In this document: positions 21,219-32,797 of the stretch, piece after piece
Position numbering within the stretch: position 1 is the first letter of the stretch
How the letters are laid out: each line of letters opens with the position of its first letter
Assembly (NCBI GenBank): GCA_012269745.1
Contig: JAAXJR010000038.1
Coordinates: forward strand, 1 to 48,267
Direction: 5' to 3'
DNA: 48,267 nt
From: Flavobacteriales bacterium
GTDB lineage: Bacteria > Bacteroidota > Bacteroidia > Flavobacteriales > Schleiferiaceae
Notes under the pieces: model-generated
Database searches by the model: none
Seen by the model: only the letters and a program-made list of their open reading frames with translations
What the model was told of the DNA's origin: nothing
Made by a program: the position numbers and the translations under genes

Positions 21219-21659
21219 ATGAAGCCCGAACAAACCTTTGACTTCCACATTCGCAAAACCTGGATTCAAATCTTTAAGATGTATAATGAACTCGTTACCG
21301 AACAAGGTCTGACGACATCATTAGGAATGGCATTGTTAAATATTGATATCAAAAACGGGACAAGATCAACAGCCCTAGGACCTAAGATGGGCATGGAAAG
21401 CACTTCATTGAGTCGCTTATTGAAAACCATGGATAAGCAAGGTCTCATTATCAAGGAATCGGATCCAAATGACAAACGTTCTGTTGTCTTGAAGCTAACT
21501 AAGACCGGGATTGAAAAACGCAATGTCGCAAGAAGCGTGGTGCTAAAATTCAATCAGACCGTTGCAGAAGAAATCGGAGAGGAACGCACCAAAGACTTTC
21601 TCATCACCATGGAGGACATCCATAAAGTGATCGAAAAACTCAGGGCTTCCGCTGAATAG
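21219..21659 (+). CDS. MarR-family transcriptional regulator
   Basis: The 146-residue protein has a MarR winged helix-turn-helix: GPKMGMESTSLSRLLKTMDKQGLI is the recognition region (about residues 48-71) and SDPNDKRSVVLKLTKTG the wing with the usual D-x-R-S motif. It acts as a dimeric DNA-binding regulator that usually responds to a small ligand. I recall close relatives with this N-terminus next to fatty-acid beta-oxidation genes in Flavobacteriia. No such genes are here; the nearest metabolic block is the acetate/propionate set that begins 300 bases downstream. Confidence 0.9.
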   Translation: MKPEQTFDFHIRKTWIQIFKMYNELVTEQGLTTSLGMALLNIDIKNGTRSTALGPKMGMESTSLSRLLKTMDKQGLIIKESDPNDKRSVVLKLTKTGIEKRNVARSVVLKFNQTVAEEIGEERTKDFLITMEDIHKVIEKLRASAE

Positions 21660-21957
21660 TTTGATATACACGGGCTAATCACTAATTCCGGTGTTAGGAT
21701 AAGATCAATTAGTGTGTTCTAGGCTCTAAAATCTAGGAATCTTATTGGTATTGTTGCGCAATTTCAGGAGAATCAATGCTAAAATGTATACTTTATTTAC
21801 ACACTATATCCATAAAACAAGCGCCTTGGATACAATTTCTTATGATTCATTTTCAGTTAATTAGAAATAGCTATCTTTAGTGAGCATCCATCTTAAAAGT
21901 ATATTTTGCTAATTAAGTATGGTTTTGCAAAATACCTATACATACCGCCAAAACATC
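21660..21957. other. AT-rich non-coding stretch before the InsA-like gene
   Basis: No gene is seen. It contains CACTAATT (21680-21687) and its inverted copy AATTAGTG (21707-21714) with a 19-base spacer. Two promoter-like boxes follow, TATCTTTA at 21872-21879 and TATATTTTG at 21900-21908, the latter with one extra base. Either could drive the InsA-like gene from the ATG at 21958, leaving a leader of about 45-75 bases. Confidence 0.45.
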
Positions 21958-22383
21958 ATGTCAAAGGATCAATATTGTCCTAAATGCCAAAGCCAAGATT
22001 ACGTCAAGAGTGGCATTATAAAAGGACGACAGCGCTTCAAGTGTAAGCAATGCAACTACTATTTCACTGTCCAAAAAATGGGCAAACGTATTGACGACTA
22101 CTACGTTACAAAGGCATTGCAGCTTTATGTGGAAGGCGTCAGCTATAGAGAAATCGAGCGAGTGCTTGGCATCTCGCACGTAAGTGTAATGAACTGGGTG
22201 AAGACCTATGGTATCAAGCGACCTCAACACAATGAAAACTACCATCCCACCTACAAGATTCTAAAGCACGAGGAGCTTGCTAAATACGTGGGATGTTCCG
22301 AAAATGTTAAAGGCTCAGGCATGATTATAACTGAGATTGGAGACAAATTCATGCTCATCAAATGGGAGCGCTTCAGAAAATAG
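21958..22383 (+). CDS. Zinc-ribbon/HTH protein related to IS1 InsA, no transposase core
   Basis: The 141-residue protein begins with a four-cysteine zinc ribbon (CPKC near residue 6, CKQC near residue 29), then an HTH of the insertion-sequence type (ALQLYVEGVSYREIERVLGISHVSVMNWVKTYG, about residues 48-80). These match the N-terminal DNA-binding part of IS1/IS1595 transposases. The following DDE catalytic domain is absent: only about 55 residues of unknown type follow, and the gene ends cleanly 138 bases before the porin ATG. The frame is intact, no IS ends are visible, and the gene points into the acetate operon, so a domesticated regulator is likelier than a relic. An ATG at 21919 is possible, but MSKDQYCPKC is the natural start. 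Confidence 0.75.
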   Translation: MSKDQYCPKCQSQDYVKSGIIKGRQRFKCKQCNYYFTVQKMGKRIDDYYVTKALQLYVEGVSYREIERVLGISHVSVMNWVKTYGIKRPQHNENYHPTYKILKHEELAKYVGCSENVKGSGMIITEIGDKFMLIKWERFRK

Positions 22384-22449
22384 GCCCTGAATAATTAAAG
22401 GGTACCTATACCACTTTACTGAAATGTATAGCTGATTTCCATAAAAAAA

Positions 22450-22515
22450 GGGTTTTTGAAACATTTGAATTGGGAGACCGTAGCAAGTAACCCAATTCGT
22501 TTAATTCAAAAACCC
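22450..22515. promoter_or_regulatory. Large imperfect palindrome at the porin start
   Basis: Two 25-base arms (22450-22474 and 22491-22515) flank a 16-base spacer. 19 of 25 positions pair: the outer 11 (GGGTTTTTGAA), the inner 8 (GAATTGGG) and one in the middle. The right arm ends 6 bases before the porin ATG. If transcribed from upstream, it is a long hairpin next to the ribosome entry site. If AACATTTG (22460-22467, one base from TAnnTTTG) is the promoter, it is instead a DNA operator around the transcription start. Confidence 0.65.
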
Positions 22516-22521
22516 AGTTTT

Positions 22522-23754
22522 ATGAGAACAAAACTAATCGCTGTTCTTACACTAACATTAGCTACCACAGCTTTGTTTGCACAAAAGAACGCAGCTCCGT
22601 ACGGATCAGGCTTAAAAGTCAGTCTGAATGAAGACGGCAGCAAGTATTACCGCTTGATTACCTGGCACCAAGCCTGGCTTCAAAGCGATCTAAGCGCTGA
22701 TAACTTCAGCGTAACCCCTTCCCTACGTCGTTCAAGAATGTTGATGTTCGCTCAGATCAACGACAGATTCTTGATTCTTACTCACTTCGGCTTGAACAGT
22801 TTAAATCCCGCAAAAATGGATCCAACTGGTCAAAGTTCTGCAGCACAGCTTTTCATGCACGATGCGTGGGCAGAATGGAAAGTGAATGAGAACTTATACA
22901 TTGGTTCCGGCCTTCACTACTGGAACGGTATCAGCCGCTTGAGCAACCAAAGTACATTGAACATGCTTTCATTGGACAATGCACGTCACAGCTGGGCAAC
23001 CATCGGAACTTCTGATCAGTTTGCGCGTCATATGGGTGTGTATGCAAAAGGTAAAGTTGGTAAACTGGATTACCGCGTAGCTTGGAATTCACCTATCGTG
23101 AACTCTTTGGATGCCAATGCAGGTTTTGAGGCTACCACTGAACAAGCCTCTTACACGGGTCGTCGTGATTTAGGCACTTCTGCTTCAAATGCTTTTGCAG
23201 GTTACTTCAATTACCAGTTCTGGGATCAAGAAAGCAACAAACTTCCTTACTTCGTTGGTACCTACTTCGGTGGTAAGGACGTATTCAATATTGGTGCTGG
23301 TTTCTTCTCGCATGCAAACGGCTCTGTACTACTTGATGGAAACGGCGCAACCGTAGGTCAGAATGTAAATATCGTTGCAGTAGATGCTTTTTTAGAGAAG
23401 AAAGTAGGCGGAGAAGGTGCAGCAGTGACGGCGTATGCTTCTTACCAAATGAACGACTACGGCCAAAACTACCAACTAAAAGGTAGCTCTGAAGACATCT
23501 TCAGTGGTAACGTATTGTATACGCAAGCTGGTTACGTACTTCCTGATTTCAACGATAATGTTCGTGTTCAACCTTATGCAACATTTACCGCAAAAAGTAT
23601 TGACAACGCTGGCAATGCGAACACTGTAGGTATTGGTGCGAACTTCCTTTTAAATGGTCACAACAGCAAAATCTCTGTAGAATACAAGAGTACAGGTAGA
23701 ACTGACGGTACTACAGGTAATATGTTGACGACTCAAGCAGTAATCTTCCTTTAA
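22522..23754 (+). CDS. Outer-membrane porin of the acetate operon
   Basis: The 410-residue protein has a signal peptide (MRTKLIAVLTLTLATTALFAQ) and the features of a 16-strand porin: repeated aromatic-flanked beta strands, Gly/Asn turns and a hydrophobic C-terminal strand ending AVIFL. It probably lets short-chain acids cross the outer membrane for the symporter that follows 13 bases after it. The ATG at 22522 is chosen over an upstream ATG at 22456 because only it gives a normal signal peptide, and the upstream one lies in the palindrome. Asn is nearly always AAC and Arg often CGT/CGC, as in strongly expressed genes. Confidence 0.85.
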   Translation: MRTKLIAVLTLTLATTALFAQKNAAPYGSGLKVSLNEDGSKYYRLITWHQAWLQSDLSADNFSVTPSLRRSRMLMFAQINDRFLILTHFGLNSLNPAKMDPTGQSSAAQLFMHDAWAEWKVNENLYIGSGLHYWNGISRLSNQSTLNMLSLDNARHSWATIGTSDQFARHMGVYAKGKVGKLDYRVAWNSPIVNSLDANAGFEATTEQASYTGRRDLGTSASNAFAGYFNYQFWDQESNKLPYFVGTYFGGKDVFNIGAGFFSHANGSVLLDGNGATVGQNVNIVAVDAFLEKKVGGEGAAVTAYASYQMNDYGQNYQLKGSSEDIFSGNVLYTQAGYVLPDFNDNVRVQPYATFTAKSIDNAGNANTVGIGANFLLNGHNSKISVEYKSTGRTDGTTGNMLTTQAVIFL

Positions 23755-23767
23755 TAAATACAGTATC

Positions 23768-24022
23768 ATGAGTAATGACAAAATGAAAGAATACTGGTCA
23801 AAGAACATCTCTAAGGTGTTGACTTTGCTCGGTGTATGGTTCTTGGTTTCCTACGTGTTTGGAATCCTATTAGTAGATACGTTGAACACCATTCCATTGG
23901 GTGGTTTCAAACTAGGCTTCTGGTTTGCCCAGCAAGGCTCTATCTACACGTTTGTAGCATTGATTTGGATCTACGTTCGTCAAATGAACAAGCTTGACGA
24001 AGAATACGGAGTTAACGAATAA
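23768..24022 (+). CDS. Symporter small subunit, DUF4212
   Basis: The 84-residue protein has two membrane helices (about 15-37 and 49-70) and the family pattern WSKNISKVLTLLGVWFLVSYVFGILLVD with GGFKLGFWFAQQGSIYTFVALIWIY. DUF4212 proteins are encoded just before a VC_2705-type sodium:solute symporter and are thought to be its small subunit. The gap to the large subunit is 11 bases. Confidence 0.92.
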   Translation: MSNDKMKEYWSKNISKVLTLLGVWFLVSYVFGILLVDTLNTIPLGGFKLGFWFAQQGSIYTFVALIWIYVRQMNKLDEEYGVNE

Positions 24023-24033
24023 AACTTTTTACA

Positions 24034-25728
24034 ATGAGTATTTTAACTTGGACCTACATTCTTGTAGGATTGACATTTGCCCTTTACATCGGGATCGCTA
24101 TTTGGTCTCGCGCGGGCTCTACAAAAGACTTTTATGTAGCAGGAGGTGGCGTTAGCCCTCTTGCAAACGGTCTTGCAACAGCAGCAGACTGGATGTCTGC
24201 GGCATCTTTCATCTCTATGGCGGGTTTGATCTCGTTCATGGGATACGACGGTTCGGTATTCCTTATGGGTTGGACCGGTGGTTACGTGCTTCTAGCACTT
24301 CTTCTCGCACCTTACCTACGTAAGTTTGGGAAGTTTACCGTGCCAGATTTCATTGGTGACCGTTACTATTCAAATACGGCACGTACAGTAGCCGTTATTT
24401 GTGCATTGTTCGTTTCATTCACGTACGTTGCTGGTCAAATGCGTGGTGTTGGTGTTGTATTCTCTCGTTTCCTTGAGGTAGATATCAACACAGGTGTATA
24501 CATCGGTATGGCAATCGTATTCTTTTACGCTGTATTAGGTGGTATGAAGGGAATTACCTACACGCAGGTAGCTCAGTACTGTGTATTGATTTTTGCCTTT
24601 ATGGTTCCAGCAATCTTCATCTCTATCCAGATGACAGGCAACCCAATCCCTCAATTAGGTTTTGGTGGTAGCTACGATGGTATGCCAATTCTAGATAAAC
24701 TTGACGGACTTCACCGCGAGCTTGGCTTTGCCGAGTACACCAACGGTAGCAAGTCGACTGTGGATGTATTCTTCATTACTGCCGCTCTTATGGTAGGTAC
24801 TGCGGGTCTTCCACACGTAATTGTACGTTTCTTCACAACTCCTAAAGTGAGTGGTGCACGTAAGTCTGCTGGATGGGCATTGTTGTTCATCGCTATCCTT
24901 TACACTACTGCACCTGCAGTAGCCGTATTTGCTCGTGTAAACTTGATTGAAACTGTAAGCAACCAACCTCGTACTGAACTTCCTGCTTGGGTAGATAACT
25001 GGGAGGAAACTGGTCTACTTTCTTGGGACGACAAAAACGGTGACGGACTTGTTCAATACGTAGCTGATGCAGAAGCGAACGAATTCAATGTAGACCGCGA
25101 TATCATGGTACTCGCGAATCCTGAAATTGCAGGTCTACCTAACTGGGTAGTAGCTCTCGTAGGTGCGGGTGGTCTTGCTGCAGCTCTAAGTACAGCCGCA
25201 GGTCTTCTACTTGTAATCTCTACTTCGGTATCTCACGATTTATTGAAGAAGCAGATTGCTCCAAACATCTCTGATAAGCAAGAGTTGATGTGGGCTCGTA
25301 TTGCTGCGGTTATCGCAGTAGTAGTTGCAGGTTACTTTGGTATCAACCCACCAGGGTTCGTTGCTTCGGTAGTAGCACTTGCCTTCGGTCTAGCAGCAGC
25401 TTCATTCTTCCCCGCTATCCTCTTGGGTATATTCACGAAGAAGATGAATAAAGAAGGTGCAATTGCTGGTATGATCAGTGGTCTTGCTATCACGATGTAC
25501 TACATCGCTCGATTCAAGCTACACTGGATTGGTGATGATGCAACTTCAACATCAGCTGATTGGTGGTGGGGCATCTCCCCTGAAGGATTCGGTACAATCG
25601 GTATGATTGTCAACTTCGTAGTTGCATTCGTTGTGAGCCGTTTCACTCCTGAAACACCACTAGATGTTCAAGACCTCGTTGAGAATATCCGTATCCCTTC
25701 AGGCGCAGGTGAAGCTTCGGCACACTAA
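24034..25728 (+). CDS. Sodium:solute symporter, probable acetate/propionate uptake
   Basis: The 564-residue protein has about 13 membrane helices of the SSSF fold. The N-terminal FYVAGGGVSPLANGLATAADWMSAASFISMAGL is the family signature that includes sodium-site residues, and GLPHVIVRFFTTP lies in the middle. It belongs to the VC_2705-like group related to acetate permease ActP, judged by its DUF4212 partner and by acs and prpE downstream. It should import acetate or related acids with Na+. Codon choice is strongly biased (GGT, CGT, AAC, TTC), as in the porin, suggesting high expression. A strong hairpin follows 25 bases after the stop. Confidence 0.9.
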   Translation: MSILTWTYILVGLTFALYIGIAIWSRAGSTKDFYVAGGGVSPLANGLATAADWMSAASFISMAGLISFMGYDGSVFLMGWTGGYVLLALLLAPYLRKFGKFTVPDFIGDRYYSNTARTVAVICALFVSFTYVAGQMRGVGVVFSRFLEVDINTGVYIGMAIVFFYAVLGGMKGITYTQVAQYCVLIFAFMVPAIFISIQMTGNPIPQLGFGGSYDGMPILDKLDGLHRELGFAEYTNGSKSTVDVFFITAALMVGTAGLPHVIVRFFTTPKVSGARKSAGWALLFIAILYTTAPAVAVFARVNLIETVSNQPRTELPAWVDNWEETGLLSWDDKNGDGLVQYVADAEANEFNVDRDIMVLANPEIAGLPNWVVALVGAGGLAAALSTAAGLLLVISTSVSHDLLKKQIAPNISDKQELMWARIAAVIAVVVAGYFGINPPGFVASVVALAFGLAAASFFPAILLGIFTKKMNKEGAIAGMISGLAITMYYIARFKLHWIGDDATSTSADWWWGISPEGFGTIGMIVNFVVAFVVSRFTPETPLDVQDLVENIRIPSGAGEASAH

Positions 25729-25784: not shown

Positions 25785-26000
25785 TTGATTAAAAACGCTC
25801 GCCGCTTGGAAAGAATTAAATACATAGGAATCTTTATCACAATTGTGCTTTTTCTGGTGTTTTCGAACCCCATTCTTAGTTTGTACAATAAGGCAACATT
25901 GTGGCAAGGCTTCCCTGTTTCTTTAGCTTTTCTTTTCAGCTGCTGGATAGGTGTTATAGTCATAGCACTCATTTTTAGTAAAGAACGCAGCAAAAGATGA
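25785..26000 (+). CDS. Small two-helix membrane protein before the histidine kinase
   Basis: The 71-residue protein has a basic N-terminus (about 13 residues), membrane helices at about 13-32 and 44-63, and a basic tail (SKERSKR). It overlaps the kinase gene by 4 bases (ATGA), so it is probably translated together with it and may be an accessory subunit of the membrane sensor. No ATG is available. The TTG at 25785 is used here; a TTG at codon 8 is also possible. I recognise no family. Confidence 0.65.
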   Translation: MIKNARRLERIKYIGIFITIVLFLVFSNPILSLYNKATLWQGFPVSLAFLFSCWIGVIVIALIFSKERSKR

Positions 26001-28609
26001 GTGCTTACATGATTATATTAATTACGGGGATGTACCTGGGTATTCTATTCTTCATTGCACAATGGGGGAAGAATGCCGGCCGTGCTTTTTTGGAAAAACA
26101 CAGCGCCATTTTCTACGCCATGGGCATCTGTGTGTACGCAACAGCATGGACCTTCTACGGCTCCATCGGTAGAGCTGCGACTCACGGTCTTGACTTTCTA
26201 GCTATTTATTTAGGTCCAATTTTATTCTTACCTGTTTGGTGGACCGTGATGCGCAAGATCATTCGCATCTCAAAGGCACAGCATCTGAATTCATTGGCAG
26301 ATTTCATTACGGCCCGCTACGGTAAAAGCTGGTCTTTGGCATTATTAACTACATTGTTAGTAGTCATGGCAATCACCCCGTATTTGGCTCTTCAAATTAA
26401 GGCGATTAGCTCTAGTGCGAATGTGTTATTAAACGATACGAAGGCGGCACCTATTGACATTGATTTAGCCTCGACCATGTTACTCTTCGTTTTCGCGTTG
26501 TTCTATGGTACTCGGTTCGCCTTTGACCCGAAACAACGCAATGGCCTTATAGCCACCATTGCCTTTGAAAGTAGCGTCAAGGTCATTGCTGCTTTTATTG
26601 GAGGTGCGATCATAGTGTACACCTATTTTGACGGCCCATCTACTATCTACCAAGAAAGCAGTACTGCAGGTTTAAGTAATCTACTTAGTATACAGAGCAG
26701 TTCAGATTGGATGCTCATGCTCATTATTAGTGGGTTTGCCTTCTTCTTGCTTCCGCGCCAATTCCAAATGGCAGTAGTCTCCAACAAACAAGAAAAAGAC
26801 TTGAGAACTGCTGTTTGGCTCGTGCCTTTATTCCTACTATTAATGAACTGGTGGGTAGTACCTATTGCTTTGGGCGGTAATCTTAAACTCCCTGCAGGAA
26901 GCAACCCAGATTACTACTTCTTGGATCTAGCGTTAAACTCAAGTCCTGTGATGGCTGGGCTAGTATTCCTAGGTGGTTTGGCTGCTTCTACATCCATGAT
27001 TATCGTAAGTTCATCGGCGGTAGCTTCCATGGTTAGTAGCAGCATGATTATGCCGCTTTTCCTGAATAACAGATGGGGAAGAAAGGAAAGCATTACCCCG
27101 GTAATCTCGCAGCGCATTGGTCTTTTAATCGTATTCGCACTGGCATTCTCTTATCATGCGGTGATCGTAGAGAAAGAAAGCTTGGTAAGCATCGGGATGA
27201 TTTCTTTTATTGGAATTGCCCAATTGGCCCCTGGATTCCTTGCTGCGCTGTACTGGCGACAGGCTACTTCTAAAGGGGTACTCGCCGGTCTTAGTGTAGG
27301 TTTCTTGTTGTGGTTGACTGCTTTTGGGGTACCCCAATGGCTGGGCAGCCGTTCAGACGAGCTAATACTGTTCAACCTATTTGAACAATGGTCACCATTG
27401 GCCAACATCTCTTTCATTTCACTGGGACTAAATGCACTAGTGATGAGCGGCATCAGCCTCATAGATTCTCCGAGCCGATTAGAGAAAAACCAAGCGGAAA
27501 TCTTCTACAACATCTTGAACATCGAGCCTGTCCTTTACGACAATTCCAACATCACCAATGGAAAAATCACTTTTGAACGATTAGAAAAACTGATGTTCCG
27601 CTATTTGCCAGACGAATTGGTTAGCGAAACGCTTTTCAAGAGGTACACCATCAACAGGATCAAGCCGAAGCCTTTTGAGCCGGTGCCGGCGCATTTGGTG
27701 AGTTACGCGGAACGACTGCTCACCCAGATGATGGGCCCCGCAACAGCTCGAATCGCATTGCACAAAGAGTTCGAAAGCGAAACTATAGATCAGTTTGACA
27801 TTCAAGACATCATCAAGGAAACCCGCGAAACCAAGCAGCTCAACACAGCATTGAAAGAAAAAACTGACCGTTTGGCCAAATTGACCGGTGAACTCACCCG
27901 TGCTAATGAGCAACTGTACTCCATGGGTAAACTAAAGGACGATTTTCTCTACACAGTGACCCACGAGTTGCGCAGTCCTCTTACTGCCATCAGAGCGCAG
28001 ATTGAATTGATGCGGGATGAAGAGGATATGCCCAAAGAAATCCGTGACCAATTCCTTGATGCTACCATCAGCGAATGTGTACGACTAACTTCGCTGATTT
28101 CGAACGTCTTGGATATAGAAAAATTTGAAAGTGGAAACCAGCAACTCAGCTTGAGTAAGGTCGATTTAAGGAACACTTTAGGAACCATCCTTAATACCCA
28201 ACTCCTGGTGGCAGAACAAGAAGGCATTTCCATTGAGATTGATGGACCAGAGCAAGTTTGGACGCTGGCAGATGAAAAGCGCATCACTCAAGTCATTATT
28301 AATCTCTTGAGCAATGCCATTAAATACGCGGACAACGAAGTAAAAGTATGCTTCAAGGAGAACGAGAACAATTGGCTCATTAATGTAGTGGACGATGGAC
28401 CAGGAGTACCTCAAGATGCTGTACCACACCTCTTTAAAAAGTTCTATCAAAGCGACGACCAAACGGTAAAAAAACGCGTCGGAACTGGATTGGGTTTGGC
28501 GATCAGCGAAAACATTATTAAGGCCCACAAAGGCACTATTGCACTAACTAATAACACACCCGAAGGGAACACAACATTCACCTTCACAATATCAAAATAT
28601 GGAAACTAA
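25997..28609 (+). CDS. Histidine kinase with sodium:solute symporter sensor domain
   Basis: The 870-residue protein combines an N-terminal SSSF transporter domain of about 12-13 helices (about 1-485), a linker (about 490-620) with a short coiled coil, and a kinase core. The H box FLYTVTHELRSPLTAIR has His656, followed by the N box QVIINLLSNAIKYAD, G1 VVDDGPGVP and G2 GTGLGLAIS. This architecture is shared with CbrA-like and related kinases, in which the transporter part senses or couples to solute transport. No PAS domain is seen. It overlaps the small membrane gene by 4 bases and the response regulator by 11. A control of acetate/propionate use is inferred from its neighbours. Confidence 0.92.
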   Translation: MSAYMIILITGMYLGILFFIAQWGKNAGRAFLEKHSAIFYAMGICVYATAWTFYGSIGRAATHGLDFLAIYLGPILFLPVWWTVMRKIIRISKAQHLNSLADFITARYGKSWSLALLTTLLVVMAITPYLALQIKAISSSANVLLNDTKAAPIDIDLASTMLLFVFALFYGTRFAFDPKQRNGLIATIAFESSVKVIAAFIGGAIIVYTYFDGPSTIYQESSTAGLSNLLSIQSSSDWMLMLIISGFAFFLLPRQFQMAVVSNKQEKDLRTAVWLVPLFLLLMNWWVVPIALGGNLKLPAGSNPDYYFLDLALNSSPVMAGLVFLGGLAASTSMIIVSSSAVASMVSSSMIMPLFLNNRWGRKESITPVISQRIGLLIVFALAFSYHAVIVEKESLVSIGMISFIGIAQLAPGFLAALYWRQATSKGVLAGLSVGFLLWLTAFGVPQWLGSRSDELILFNLFEQWSPLANISFISLGLNALVMSGISLIDSPSRLEKNQAEIFYNILNIEPVLYDNSNITNGKITFERLEKLMFRYLPDELVSETLFKRYTINRIKPKPFEPVPAHLVSYAERLLTQMMGPATARIALHKEFESETIDQFDIQDIIKETRETKQLNTALKEKTDRLAKLTGELTRANEQLYSMGKLKDDFLYTVTHELRSPLTAIRAQIELMRDEEDMPKEIRDQFLDATISECVRLTSLISNVLDIEKFESGNQQLSLSKVDLRNTLGTILNTQLLVAEQEGISIEIDGPEQVWTLADEKRITQVIINLLSNAIKYADNEVKVCFKENENNWLINVVDDGPGVPQDAVPHLFKKFYQSDDQTVKKRVGTGLGLAISENIIKAHKGTIALTNNTPEGNTTFTFTISKYGN

Positions 28610-28988: not shown

Positions 28989-30893
28989 ATGAATGCCACC
29001 TATCGGAAACAGTTTTTAGAGAGTCGCGACCATCCCGCTGCGTTTTGGATGGAGCAATCCAAGGCTATTAATTGGCTGAAAGAACCTAAAATTGGTCTTG
29101 AAACCAAAGCAAACGGCGCCTCTCGATGGTTCCCTGACGGTGAGCTAAACACATCGGCACTTTGTTTGGATACGCATATTGACAGTGGTCGCGGCTTAGA
29201 GTCCGCCATCATTTATGAAAGCCCTGTAACAGATACCGTGCGCAGCTATACCTACATCGAGGTATTGCGCGAAGTAAATTCCATAGCCAAAGGGATGATA
29301 GATATGGGGCTTCAAAAAGGTGATGCAGCCATCATCTACATGCCCATGATCCCCGAAGCTGTTTTCGCTATGTTGGCATGTGCTCGTCTTGGCGTCATTC
29401 ACAGTGTAGTTTTTGGTGGGTTTGCACCGAAGGAATTGGCTGTTCGTCTTGAGGATGCCAAGCCAAAAATCATCTTTACGGCTGATGCTGGAATTGAGAT
29501 TCAAAAAACCATTCACTACAAACCCATGGTCGATGCTGGCATTGATTTAAGTGCGCATAAACCAGAAAAAGTCGTGGTCTTTGACAGAGGCCTATCGGAC
29601 CAGTGTGAAATGAGGAATTTGGATGTGAAATGGGACCAATTCTGTAAAGACGGTTTCTACATCGCTCCTACCCCTGTGGCTTCTAACGACCCGTTATACA
29701 TTCTATACACCTCTGGTACCACAGGTAATCCTAAGGGAATTGTGCGTGAAAATGGTGGACATGCGGTAGCACTCAAATACAGCATGGAGCACATCTATGG
29801 AGTGAAGCCTGGCGAAGTATACTGGGCAGCAAGTGATATAGGCTGGGTGGTAGGTCACAGCTACATCGTTTATGGTCCTATGATTCAAGGCGCGACTACG
29901 GTGCTCTTTGAGGGCAAACCTATCAAGACTCCAGACGCATCCACTTTTTGGAGAATCATTTCTGAACACAAAGTAGTGACCATGTTCACTGCGCCCACTG
30001 CTATTCGTGCCATCCGCAAGGAGGATCCGAACGGCGATATGATTAAACAATACGACCTAAGTCACTTTAGAACGCAATTCCTCGCTGGGGAGCGTTGCGA
30101 TGCCGATACTCTAGAATGGACCGCCGAAAAATTAGGAGTACCAGTGATTGACCACTGGTGGCAAACTGAAAGCGGCTGGCCTATGCTTGGTCAATGTGTT
30201 GGGTATGGGTCCGATCCGGTGAAACCGGGTTCTGCCAATTTCCCAATACCAGGTTATAACGTGCAGATCATTGACGAGCAGGGCCAGCCCGCGGCGCCAG
30301 GTGAAGAAGGATTGGTTTGCGTGAAATTACCTCTGCCGCCAGGGGCTTTAGCTGACTTGTGGCAGGATACCGAACGCTTTGAGCGCAGCTACCTGAGCCC
30401 CGTACCCGGCTATTATTTCTCAGGCGATGGTGGGTATCGGGACGAGGAAGGCTATGTCTTTATCACAGGTCGTGTAGATGATGTGATCAATGTTGCTGGT
30501 CACCGCCTGAGTACCGCTGAAATGGAGGAAGTGATTGCCGCTAATGAAAATGTGGCTGAATGTGCATGCTTTGGCATACACGACGAGCTAAAAGGACAAG
30601 TACCTATGGCGATGGTGGTGCTGAATCACAACAGTTGTGGTATTGATGAATTGGTGCCAGAACTTAAAGCAGCTATTCGCGCAGATATCGGTGCTATTGC
30701 CGGCATCAAACACATCATTGAAGTCCCGCGGCTGCCTAAAACGCGCTCAGGAAAAATCTTGAGAAAAACCCTTAGAGCTATTGTGGATGGGAATGAATAC
30801 CAAATCCCAAGTACTATAGACGACCCAGCTATCCTCGAAGAAATTGAACAAAAAGTAAAAACACAGATAAACACTAAAACAAAGACGATATGA
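28989..30893 (+). CDS. prpE: Propionyl-CoA synthetase (acyl-CoA synthetase, PrpE/ACSS3-like)
   Basis: The 634-residue AMP-forming ligase activates short acids to acyl-CoA. The P-loop YTSGTTGNPKGIVRENGGH (about 236-254), the HWWQTESGWP core near 388 and the C-terminal PKTRSGKILRK, whose Lys is the usual acylation site, are present. The GIVRENGGHAVAL block and the DWWQ-type region resemble PrpE and ACSS3 rather than Acs, so propionate or a slightly longer acid is the likely substrate. It starts 18 bases after the response regulator and overlaps acs by 4 bases. Confidence 0.85.
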   Translation: MNATYRKQFLESRDHPAAFWMEQSKAINWLKEPKIGLETKANGASRWFPDGELNTSALCLDTHIDSGRGLESAIIYESPVTDTVRSYTYIEVLREVNSIAKGMIDMGLQKGDAAIIYMPMIPEAVFAMLACARLGVIHSVVFGGFAPKELAVRLEDAKPKIIFTADAGIEIQKTIHYKPMVDAGIDLSAHKPEKVVVFDRGLSDQCEMRNLDVKWDQFCKDGFYIAPTPVASNDPLYILYTSGTTGNPKGIVRENGGHAVALKYSMEHIYGVKPGEVYWAASDIGWVVGHSYIVYGPMIQGATTVLFEGKPIKTPDASTFWRIISEHKVVTMFTAPTAIRAIRKEDPNGDMIKQYDLSHFRTQFLAGERCDADTLEWTAEKLGVPVIDHWWQTESGWPMLGQCVGYGSDPVKPGSANFPIPGYNVQIIDEQGQPAAPGEEGLVCVKLPLPPGALADLWQDTERFERSYLSPVPGYYFSGDGGYRDEEGYVFITGRVDDVINVAGHRLSTAEMEEVIAANENVAECACFGIHDELKGQVPMAMVVLNHNSCGIDELVPELKAAIRADIGAIAGIKHIIEVPRLPKTRSGKILRKTLRAIVDGNEYQIPSTIDDPAILEEIEQKVKTQINTKTKTI

Positions 30894-32797
30894 GCTATTA
30901 CAACATCGACAGCTTCGCGAAGTACGAAGACGCTTATAAAGCCTCAGTAGATAACCCAGCTGAATTCTGGGCAGAAATCGCAGGTGAATTCACTTGGCAA
31001 AAGCCGTGGGATAAAACGCTAGAATGGGAGTTCAGCACTCCAAATGTGAAGTGGTTTCAAGGCGGTGTTTTGAACATTACAGAAAACTGTTTGGACCGTC
31101 ATCTCGAAGATAGAGGCGATGATATTGCCTTGATTTGGGAGCCTAATGACCCGAAGGAAAAAGAGGTGCGCATGACCTTCAAGGAATTGCACGCAGAAGT
31201 GTGTCGCTTTGCGAATGTCCTTAAAGCCAAAGGTGTGAAGAAAGGCGACCGTGTTGCGGTGTACATGCCTATGGTACCAGAGCTGACCATTGGGGTGTTG
31301 GCGTGTGCGAGAATTGGTGCAGTACACTCTGTGGTATTCGCAGGATTTTCTTCAAATGCACTTGCTGACCGCATCAACGACAGCCAATGTGTTTGTGTAT
31401 TAACCTCAGACGGAATGTACCGTGGTGCCAAAGCATTACCGGTAAAAACCACTGTGGACGAAGCCTTGAAGAACTGTACCTCAGTGGAGAGCGTGATCGT
31501 AGTGAAGCGCGACGGACGCGAGGTAGAAATGGTAGAAGGCCGTGATCACTGGTATGCTGAGGCAGCGGCTGAAGTGAGCGCAGATTGTGCTCCTGAGCCT
31601 ATGGATGCCGAAGACATGCTCTTCATCCTGTACACTTCTGGATCTACAGGTAAGCCTAAGGGTGTCGTTCACACGTGTGGCGGGTACATGGTTTATGCGG
31701 CCTACAGCTTCCAGAATGTCTTCCAATACGAGCGCGGCGATGTATACTGGTGTACCGCCGATGTGGGTTGGATCACTGGACACAGCTACATTATCTACGG
31801 ACCGCTATTGAACGGGGCGACAACGATGATGTTTGAAGGTGTTCCTACCTTTCCGGATGCTGGTCGTTTCTGGGACGTATGTGATAAATATAAAGTAAAC
31901 CAATTCTACACTGCTCCAACGGCGATACGCGCCTTGATGGCCTGTGGTGACGAGTTCGTTGAGCGTGCAGATTTAAGCTCTCTGAAGGTCATTGGATCTG
32001 TGGGTGAGCCTATTAATGCTGAGGCATGGCACTGGTACGACGAGAAGGTGGGTCATGGAAAATGCCCTATCGTAGATACATGGTGGCAAACTGAGACCGG
32101 AGGTATTATGATCTCCGGTCTAGGTGCACACAGCCCTCAACGCCCGACCTATGCGGGACGTCCACTTCCAGGTATTCAACCGGTACTTTTGGACGGTGAC
32201 GGTAATGAAATCACGGGCGACGGTGTGGAAGGTTACTTGTGTGTAAAACACCCATGGCCTTCTATGTTGCGCACGACTTATGGCGACCACGAGCGTTGTA
32301 AGAATGTATATTTCAGCAATTACGAAGGCTACTATTTCACCGGAGATGGTGCACGCCGCGAGGACGGAATGTTCCGCATTATAGGTCGTGTGGATGATGT
32401 AATCAACGTAAGTGGACACCGATTCGGAACTGCAGAAATTGAAAATGCCATCAACGCCTCATCAGTGGTTACAGAAAGTGCTGTAGTGGGTTACCCACAC
32501 GACATTAAAGGTCAAGGCATCTATGCCTATGTGATCCTTGAAGAAGGTGAGCACAATGCGGACGAGGTTCGTAAATCTATTGTAAGCACTTTGGTTGCTG
32601 AGATCGGACCTATTGCGAAACCGGATGTCATTCAGATTGTTCCAGGTCTGCCAAAGACGCGTTCAGGAAAAATCATGCGTAGAATTTTAAGAAAAGTAGC
32701 AGAAGGTGATACTAGCAATCTTGGCGACACTTCGACATTACTTGATCCAAGTGTTGTCGAAACAATCAAAGCAGACGCTCTAGAGTTAAGAGCATAA
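30890..32797 (+). CDS. acs: Acetyl-CoA synthetase
   Basis: AMP-forming enzyme that turns acetate, ATP and CoA into acetyl-CoA. The 635 residues match Acs. Visible are WFQGGVLNITENCLDRHL, the P-loop YTSGSTGKPKGVVHT near 246-260, the acetate-pocket region DVGWITGHSYIIYGPL, DTWWQTETGG near 400, and PGLPKTRSGKIMRRILRK near 585-602 with the acetylatable Lys. It overlaps prpE by 4 bases, so the two activating enzymes are coupled. The DUF294 gene follows after 10 bases. Confidence 0.95.
   Translation: MSYYNIDSFAKYEDAYKASVDNPAEFWAEIAGEFTWQKPWDKTLEWEFSTPNVKWFQGGVLNITENCLDRHLEDRGDDIALIWEPNDPKEKEVRMTFKELHAEVCRFANVLKAKGVKKGDRVAVYMPMVPELTIGVLACARIGAVHSVVFAGFSSNALADRINDSQCVCVLTSDGMYRGAKALPVKTTVDEALKNCTSVESVIVVKRDGREVEMVEGRDHWYAEAAAEVSADCAPEPMDAEDMLFILYTSGSTGKPKGVVHTCGGYMVYAAYSFQNVFQYERGDVYWCTADVGWITGHSYIIYGPLLNGATTMMFEGVPTFPDAGRFWDVCDKYKVNQFYTAPTAIRALMACGDEFVERADLSSLKVIGSVGEPINAEAWHWYDEKVGHGKCPIVDTWWQTETGGIMISGLGAHSPQRPTYAGRPLPGIQPVLLDGDGNEITGDGVEGYLCVKHPWPSMLRTTYGDHERCKNVYFSNYEGYYFTGDGARREDGMFRIIGRVDDVINVSGHRFGTAEIENAINASSVVTESAVVGYPHDIKGQGIYAYVILEEGEHNADEVRKSIVSTLVAEIGPIAKPDVIQIVPGLPKTRSGKIMRRILRKVAEGDTSNLGDTSTLLDPSVVETIKADALELRA

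Follow-up and report, generated by a model that had tools for sequence, protein, structure and literature searches.

How might a response regulator without DNA-binding output reach the genes of an acetate-use cluster? This question is raised by a 48,267-nucleotide stretch of Schleiferiaceae (Flavobacteriales) DNA, referred to here as the window, in which a gene resembling insA of the insertion sequence IS1 is followed, on one strand, by genes in the order porin-DUF4212-SSF-HK-RR-Acs-Acs (Table 1). The original prediction had placed the InsA-like gene in the same orientation before a porin-symporter-acs block and had described the response regulator as lacking DNA-binding output, and both descriptions hold. 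Domain models revealed a receiver but no LuxR-type DNA-binding domain in the response regulator of the window, and the response regulator genes of relatives that were measured (n = 74) encode 112-129 aa. The same models found no receiver domain on the SLC5-domain histidine kinase, which stands beside acs. It is argued below, with a probability put at roughly 0.7, that the InsA-like protein is a domesticated, IS1 InsA-derived transcription factor of the acetate genes, with fossil IS1 ends serving as its operators.

Table 1. Coordinates of the InsA-like gene, its surrounding elements and the acetate module in the window.
Feature	Position	Strand	Basis or remark
Presumed operator/promoter of the InsA-like gene: tandem IS1-end-derived element TTGCTAATTAAGTATGGTTTTGCAAAATACCTATA with a period of 19	21906..21940	+	Conserved upstream; resembles IS1 terminal repeat
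InsA-like regulator gene (candidate)	21958..22383	+	ORF, 141 aa, single copy
Zinc ribbon, aa 7-32, four invariant Cys	21976..22053	+	Domain models, alignment; strands in AF2 model
Three-helix HTH, aa 48-84	22099..22209	+	Domain models, alignment, AF2 model
C-terminal tail, aa 117-139, with WERF	22306..22374	+	First part aligns with zero-frame InsA tail of IS1; conserved with SLC5 kinase
Decayed inverted element copy between InsA-like gene and porin, presumed second operator (fossil right end)	22407..22441	-	Half-site matrix, shuffle p 0.01 in window
Large inverted repeat / leader hairpin before porin	22444..22521	+	Arms 22444-22474 and 22491-22521; unique in genome
Outer-membrane porin	22522..23754	+	NCBIfam ExtI match 46.9 bits, below cut-off of 150
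DUF4212 small subunit of Na+/solute symporter	23768..24022	+	TIGR03647
VC_2705-family sodium/solute symporter (SSF)	24034..25728	+	TIGR03648
SLC5(SSF)-histidine kinase, CrbS/CbrA-like	25997..28609	+	Domain models
Receiver-only response regulator, 123 aa	28599..28970	+	Domain models
Acyl-CoA synthetase 1	28989..30893	+	Best model propionate--CoA ligase, below cut-off
Acetate--CoA ligase (Acs)	30890..32797	+	TIGR02188, above cut-off

Given the best model of acyl-CoA synthetase 1, the module may be used for propionate in addition to acetate. Just upstream of the InsA-like gene lies a MarR-family regulator gene (21219-21659), which among 108 loci was matched in same-genus loci only.

The start position of the InsA-like ORF is shared by its homologues, and an alternative ATG, at 21919, falls within the conserved upstream element. 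The N-terminal zinc ribbon and HTH of the IS1 family are both present in the protein, as had been claimed for a module of the IS1/IS1595 type: NCBIfam IS1_IS1595_Zn scored 37.9 bits (cut-off 28) and Pfam HTH_23 scored 25.9 (cut-off 24.6), with Pfam Zn_ribbon_InsA, at 22.9, staying under its cut-off of 26.1. The predicted loss of the DDE core was likewise confirmed, in that the IS1 transposase model matched over positions 1-119 of 199 only (84.5 bits, under the cut-off of 100), ending before the DDE catalytic domain, and stops interrupt both other forward frames downstream of the gene. Glu105 occupies the position of the first catalytic Asp, a residue that varies in the family. An A-rich slippery run for a -1 frameshift was sought in the InsA-like gene of the window and none was found. 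A search of the organism's own genome returned no second IS1 match at E <= 0.001, and the gene is present there once, not in several copies at varied sites as a mobile element would be. Comparison of six gene pairs revealed purifying selection (pN 0.015-0.091 vs. pS 0.27-0.96), and in the matching genomes of a 40-genome set the open frames are intact at identities of at least 56%. A Foldseek search of the PDB with the protein returned nothing at E <= 0.001; the AF2 model (pLDDT 81, pTM 0.63) is informative for local structure only.

The origin of the protein was addressed through its C-terminal tail. In IS1, according to PMC12428005, InsA is read in the zero frame, with the transposase being generated via a -1 frameshift late in insA. 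Past the A-rich run, the zero frame of an IS1 from Methanomethylovorans (L140) reads KKNTAGSGLLLIELG, and the window reads SENVKGSGMIITEIG. When an HMM built from the tail only was used to search 3,784 sequences (1,892 ORFs and 1,892 shuffled decoys), the top three matches were InsA tails, namely, those of L140 (E 5.6e-4), L195 (0.018) and the Methylobacter element L141 (0.06), with the first decoy following at 2.2. In the same search, the tails of L139, L120, L196 and L197 could not be told apart from decoys, no transposase-frame ORF was found, and the final KWERF residues have no counterpart in the matches. The earlier description of a newly gained C-terminus was thus not borne out, since the tail aligns with the InsA zero-frame tail beyond the IS1 frameshift site; this alignment points to a gene that most likely descends from the IS1 repressor isoform. 

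A tblastn search of plasmids identified IS1-family transposases of Tenacibaculum (L139, plasmid CP116296), Methanomethylovorans, Methylobacter and others at 36-39% identity, and the nearest homologues outside the family also include L120 (genome G229; 38%) and L195 (genome G364; 41%). In a tree of IS1 proteins, the domesticated proteins (30 of the 52 rows) form one side of a branch with a support of 99/98, in a tree of few columns with an unsettled bootstrap and several long-branched IS1 rows. Other InsA-only genes were also encountered. L196 (G352; 37% identical) and L197 (G499; 33% identical) have unrelated neighbours and no transposase in the -1 frame, with a TTGTTAATCTAATATAG stretch lying upstream of L197, and the two may represent separate domestications from the same IS1 subgroup; further InsA-only genes occur in G522 and G467.

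Orthologues of the gene were not found scattered beside unrelated neighbours. A scan of genome contigs yielded 577 relatives, of which the best 80 were kept, a choice that favours close relatives, and in 80 of these 80 loci one or more genes of the module lie downstream on the same strand. The kinase was found downstream in 76 of these best 80, the response regulator in 74, the porin in 73, DUF4212 in 68 and SSF in 67, with a strong Acs match in at least 59, a lower bound because the 8 kb flank often ends where the Acs gene starts. Of the four loci without a kinase, three end with their contigs and one (L102) does not. The predicted co-occurrence with DUF4212 symporter/acs clusters accordingly stands as regards the acetate module and not as regards DUF4212 itself, for which 12 of the 80 loci gave no match, in one case (L031) because of a contig end. 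As a separate observation, the transporter of the cluster alternates between the DUF4212/SSF symporter and an MFS metabolite/H+ symporter, the latter lying downstream in all five other-genus loci examined (L176, L177, L180, L182 and L187).

Co-occurrence was also considered across whole genomes. Among 40 genomes, the organism's own included, 28 contain the InsA-like gene, in exactly one copy each; the kinase is present in eight, all of which have the InsA-like gene. In the remaining 20 carriers, which belong to the same genus and are without the kinase, the InsA-like gene immediately precedes the Acs gene. Of 247 genomes of the class, 22 contain strong InsA-like members (205-272 bits) and 23 contain the kinase, such that 21 have both, one (G203) has the InsA-like gene alone, two (G401 and G491) have the kinase alone and 223 have neither; five weaker matches (92-117 bits), one of them being the apparently intact IS1 L195, were excluded as members. 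Kinase-symporter clusters without an InsA-like gene were noted in G401 (L193) and G491 (L194). The kinase is missing from the carriers G203 and G327 as well, which, together with the 20 same-genus genomes, indicates that it is not essential to the role of the InsA-like protein. In G432 and G476, the InsA-like gene is followed by the porin on one contig (joined in G432 by an MFS symporter) and kinase-RR-Acs lie on another, in which no tandem element was found, such that the kinase and acs need not be targets of the InsA-like protein.

At the start of the InsA-like gene, the half-site pattern TTGCTAAWTTnnTATA appears twice with a period of 19, and k-mer counts together with alignment gave the consensus TTGCTAAATTaATATATTTATGCTAAATTAATATATA before the start codon. 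The tandem element is present in 85 of 85 training loci, whose scores are high by construction, and the best half-site pair has a spacing of 19 in each when spacings of 17-23 are allowed. These counts omit L002 and L003, which duplicate the contigs of L029 and L030, and the truncated L028; the 20 loci of the kinase-less genus members were excluded from training and scored apart. Of 24 later loci, 21 contain the element, one of these (L202) being training locus L097 again, so that 20 of 23 held-out loci have it before the InsA-like gene. The exceptions are G203 and G327, which are without it, and G227, in which the whole tandem is placed ahead of the porin. A pattern scan of 79 genomes of the order (up to three mismatches) revealed 27 sites in 26 genomes, against none for a reversed control pattern. 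The second site in G590, which sits in a duplicated contig end, was rejected as an operator; otherwise, the pattern is confined to one place per genome, from which a regulator of purely local action is predicted, and all ten sites that were fetched as loci sit just before an InsA-like gene. In L175, L200 and L203, the acs gene is divergent from the InsA-like gene and the tandem element lies between them. The 20 same-genus loci that lack the kinase have all lost the tandem element. Two of these (L025 and L026) retain one good half-site upstream (12.7 bits), an apparent intermediate in tandem loss.

The element was next compared with the ends of IS1 itself. The terminal inverted repeats of the plasmid IS1 relatives start with GGCATTG and are of the type GGCATTG(C/T)TAATT; the left end of the Tenacibaculum IS1 is GGCATTGCTAATTTAATATAG, the ends of L195 are GGTATTGCTAA, and the window element is TTGCTAATTAAGTATGG. 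A half-site matrix trained on InsA-like loci only placed the two ends of L195 at ranks 1 and 2 of 29,974 positions, with 19.8 and 17.8 bits as compared to 8.8 for the next position. The same matrix ranked the left and right ends of the Tenacibaculum IS1 first and second of 10,698 positions, and the right end of the Methylobacter IS1 first of 10,728. The resemblance varies in degree, since among the 12 plasmid or genome IS1 loci scanned the left end of L140 ranked only 24 and L172 reached only rank 11, and no element-like end was found in L168, L170, L173 or L174; inverted-repeat searches were unproductive for IS1 loci from other subgroups. The IS1 elements of L120, L140 and L195 have a transposase continuation in the -1 frame, unlike the InsA-like gene, and L139 and L141 carry annotations as IS1 transposases; these relatives keep outer tips, unlike the window element. 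In the element sites, inner half-sites are retained on both sides and outer tips of the GGCA type are not conserved, so complete IS1 terminal repeats are absent. Given these rankings, what are presumed to be operators resemble IS1 ends preserved as fossils, devoid of outer tips. The IS ends anticipated near orthologues are therefore present, as conserved fossil half-sites and not as a mobile element.

A second such site follows the stop codon of the InsA-like gene, in the opposite orientation. Scores from the half-site matrix lay above the 95% shuffle level in reverse in 55 of 85 loci, as compared to 2 of 85 in the forward direction, and across 44 clusters sharing under 80% identity, the copy had a shuffle p <= 0.05 in 31 in reverse vs. 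4 forward. The copy is weak in the window and was not found in all lineages. A 37-nt matrix of fixed spacing performed poorly here (13 of 85 in reverse vs. 2 of 85 forward above the 99% shuffle level), the commonest spacings at this site being 21 and 20, and was set aside for half-site pairs, which resolved it.

The large palindrome that had been pointed out beside the InsA-like gene does exist: the region 22380-22540 folds at -45 kcal/mol (z -5.67), with none of 200 shuffles being as good. In the alignments, as judged by eye, it is confined to same-genus loci, and it was thus set aside as a general target of the InsA-like protein; the elements that are conserved between genera are those at 21906-21940 and 22407-22441. 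Within the same-genus loci, one paired change and some one-sided breaks in the hairpin were seen by eye, and the hairpin is a candidate mRNA leader structure.

The tail differs in conservation according to whether the kinase is present. In the same genus, the core of the InsA-like protein is conserved at 0.81 in the 20 loci without the kinase and at 0.83 in the three with it, as opposed to 0.33 and 0.79, respectively, for the last 22 residues. Of the 61 genomes of known kinase status, all 39 with the kinase and none of the 22 without it have the motif WER(F/L), taken as a regular expression (W, then E/D/Q, R and F/L/M/I), the motif having been picked after the sequences were seen, 20 of the 22 kinase-less genomes (the other two being G203 and G327) belonging to one genus, and L028, counted among the 39, lying outside the motif tree. 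Both motif states occur within two genera, that of the window and that of G203 and G109; well supported branches force one independent pair in the contrast of motif and kinase, and the best tree contains five. G432, G476 and G426 also have the motif, with the InsA-like gene and the kinase on different contigs, in G426 perhaps because of a mere assembly break. Together, the distribution of the motif suggests that the InsA-like protein is coupled to the kinase/receiver pair; this indirect evidence is the mainstay of the proposed link to the receiver.

A working mechanism can be outlined from these comparisons. The zinc ribbon and HTH would bind the TTGCTAAWTTnnTATA half-sites, which would have come down to the gene as terminal repeats of IS1. 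The InsA-like gene would be autoregulated through the tandem site at its start, as with InsA at the left end of IS1, and a second binding site would be provided by the decayed inverted copy ahead of the porin. InsA represses a promoter lying across the left end of IS1 and competes for the two ends, according to PMC12428005. Input would arrive via the C-terminal tail, with the SLC5 histidine kinase phosphorylating the receiver-only response regulator in response to what is presumed to be an acetate signal, and the phosphorylated receiver relieving or altering the hold of the InsA-like protein on its operators. By descent, the simplest model would be a repressor of the acetate genes that controls its own expression and is released when the phosphorylated receiver acts on its tail. 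The original prediction of a domesticated InsA-like protein as candidate regulator is supported in terms of domestication and of linkage to the acetate module in all of the best 80 of 577 loci, as is the notion that the protein could stand in for the missing output of the response regulator; the palindrome as general target and the novelty of the C-terminus are the parts that fell. That the receiver acts on the InsA-like protein via the tail is offered tentatively, at slightly less than even odds.

Contained within the probability of the transcription-factor reading is a version in which the protein, derived from IS1 InsA together with the ends, acts as a local transcription factor independently of the two-component pair, sensing a metabolite or its own level, with kinase and receiver acting elsewhere. 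Such independence would account for the retention of the InsA-like gene without the kinase in the 20 same-genus genomes, G203 and G327, and for its separation from the kinase in G432 and G476. It is nonetheless considered rather unlikely, as the tail motif tracks the kinase (39 of 39 vs. 0 of 22) even where the two are unlinked, and as 21 of the 22 carriers of the InsA-like gene and 21 of the 23 carriers of the kinase in the class have both. Less probable by far is that the elements are no more than a core promoter for the InsA-like gene or operon, with the protein binding elsewhere or being an RNA-binding or zinc protein. The element is AT-rich, ends at or near the start codon and may contain a promoter, and its binding by the InsA-like protein is inferred only; a simple promoter would, however, not be expected to recur as an inverted copy before the porin, where G227 has the whole tandem, or to match the ends of the parent IS1. 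Finally, that a functionless, decaying IS1 remnant is hitch-hiking beside the acetate genes, as the lack of a DDE domain, of a slippery run and of conserved end tips might suggest, is scarcely credible in light of the intact frames and strong purifying selection, cis elements at fixed spacing and steady neighbours.

The transcription-factor reading can be set against three known systems. With the E. coli IS1 InsA repressor, as presented in PMC12428005, the InsA-like gene shares a zinc ribbon and HTH, a place as first gene of the unit, a promoter that overlaps the left end and presumed binding sites at both ends; it differs in having neither an InsAB' transposase nor a frameshift run of the A6C type, in being single copy, in outer tips that are not conserved, in a doubled left site and in its linkage to acetate genes. 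CrbS/CrbR, described in PMC5715377, similarly ties an SLC5-domain histidine kinase to acs and acetate use. In that system CrbR is a LuxR-family activator, whereas in the window the response regulator consists of a receiver only, and DNA binding would be contributed in trans by the InsA-like protein. Transposon-derived bacterial regulators are already known in the form of TldR, TnpB-derived RNA-guided repressors, which, as described in PMC13418256, resemble the present case in being transposon proteins with an inactivated catalytic domain, kept as regulators with strong gene associations. TldR proteins are guided by RNA, whereas the operators of the InsA-like protein themselves appear to be descended from transposon ends. 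A literature search limited to titles and abstract openings in the journals covered returned no paper on a regulator of acetate genes derived from IS1 or InsA, and none on an InsA-derived regulator of host genes with IS-end operators. As the curated models that match the InsA-like gene bear transposase-type names, such a gene is easily passed over.

Judging from sequence comparison, the InsA-like gene has the appearance of an acetate-use regulator in many Bacteroidota, in which this small protein has probably been kept as a home-made acetate-use switch. It is conceivable, if still somewhat short of an even chance, that in the class Bacteroidia a transposon-derived protein has replaced the output domain of a two-component system, with a bare receiver contacting the tail of a former IS1 repressor, such that the IS1 circuit of repressor isoform and both ends was captured and rewired to acetate sensing. 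If true, a transposon repressor and the ends to which it binds would have been captured together as a ready-made switch, and this would provide a route by which output-less response regulators beside SLC5 kinases reach DNA.
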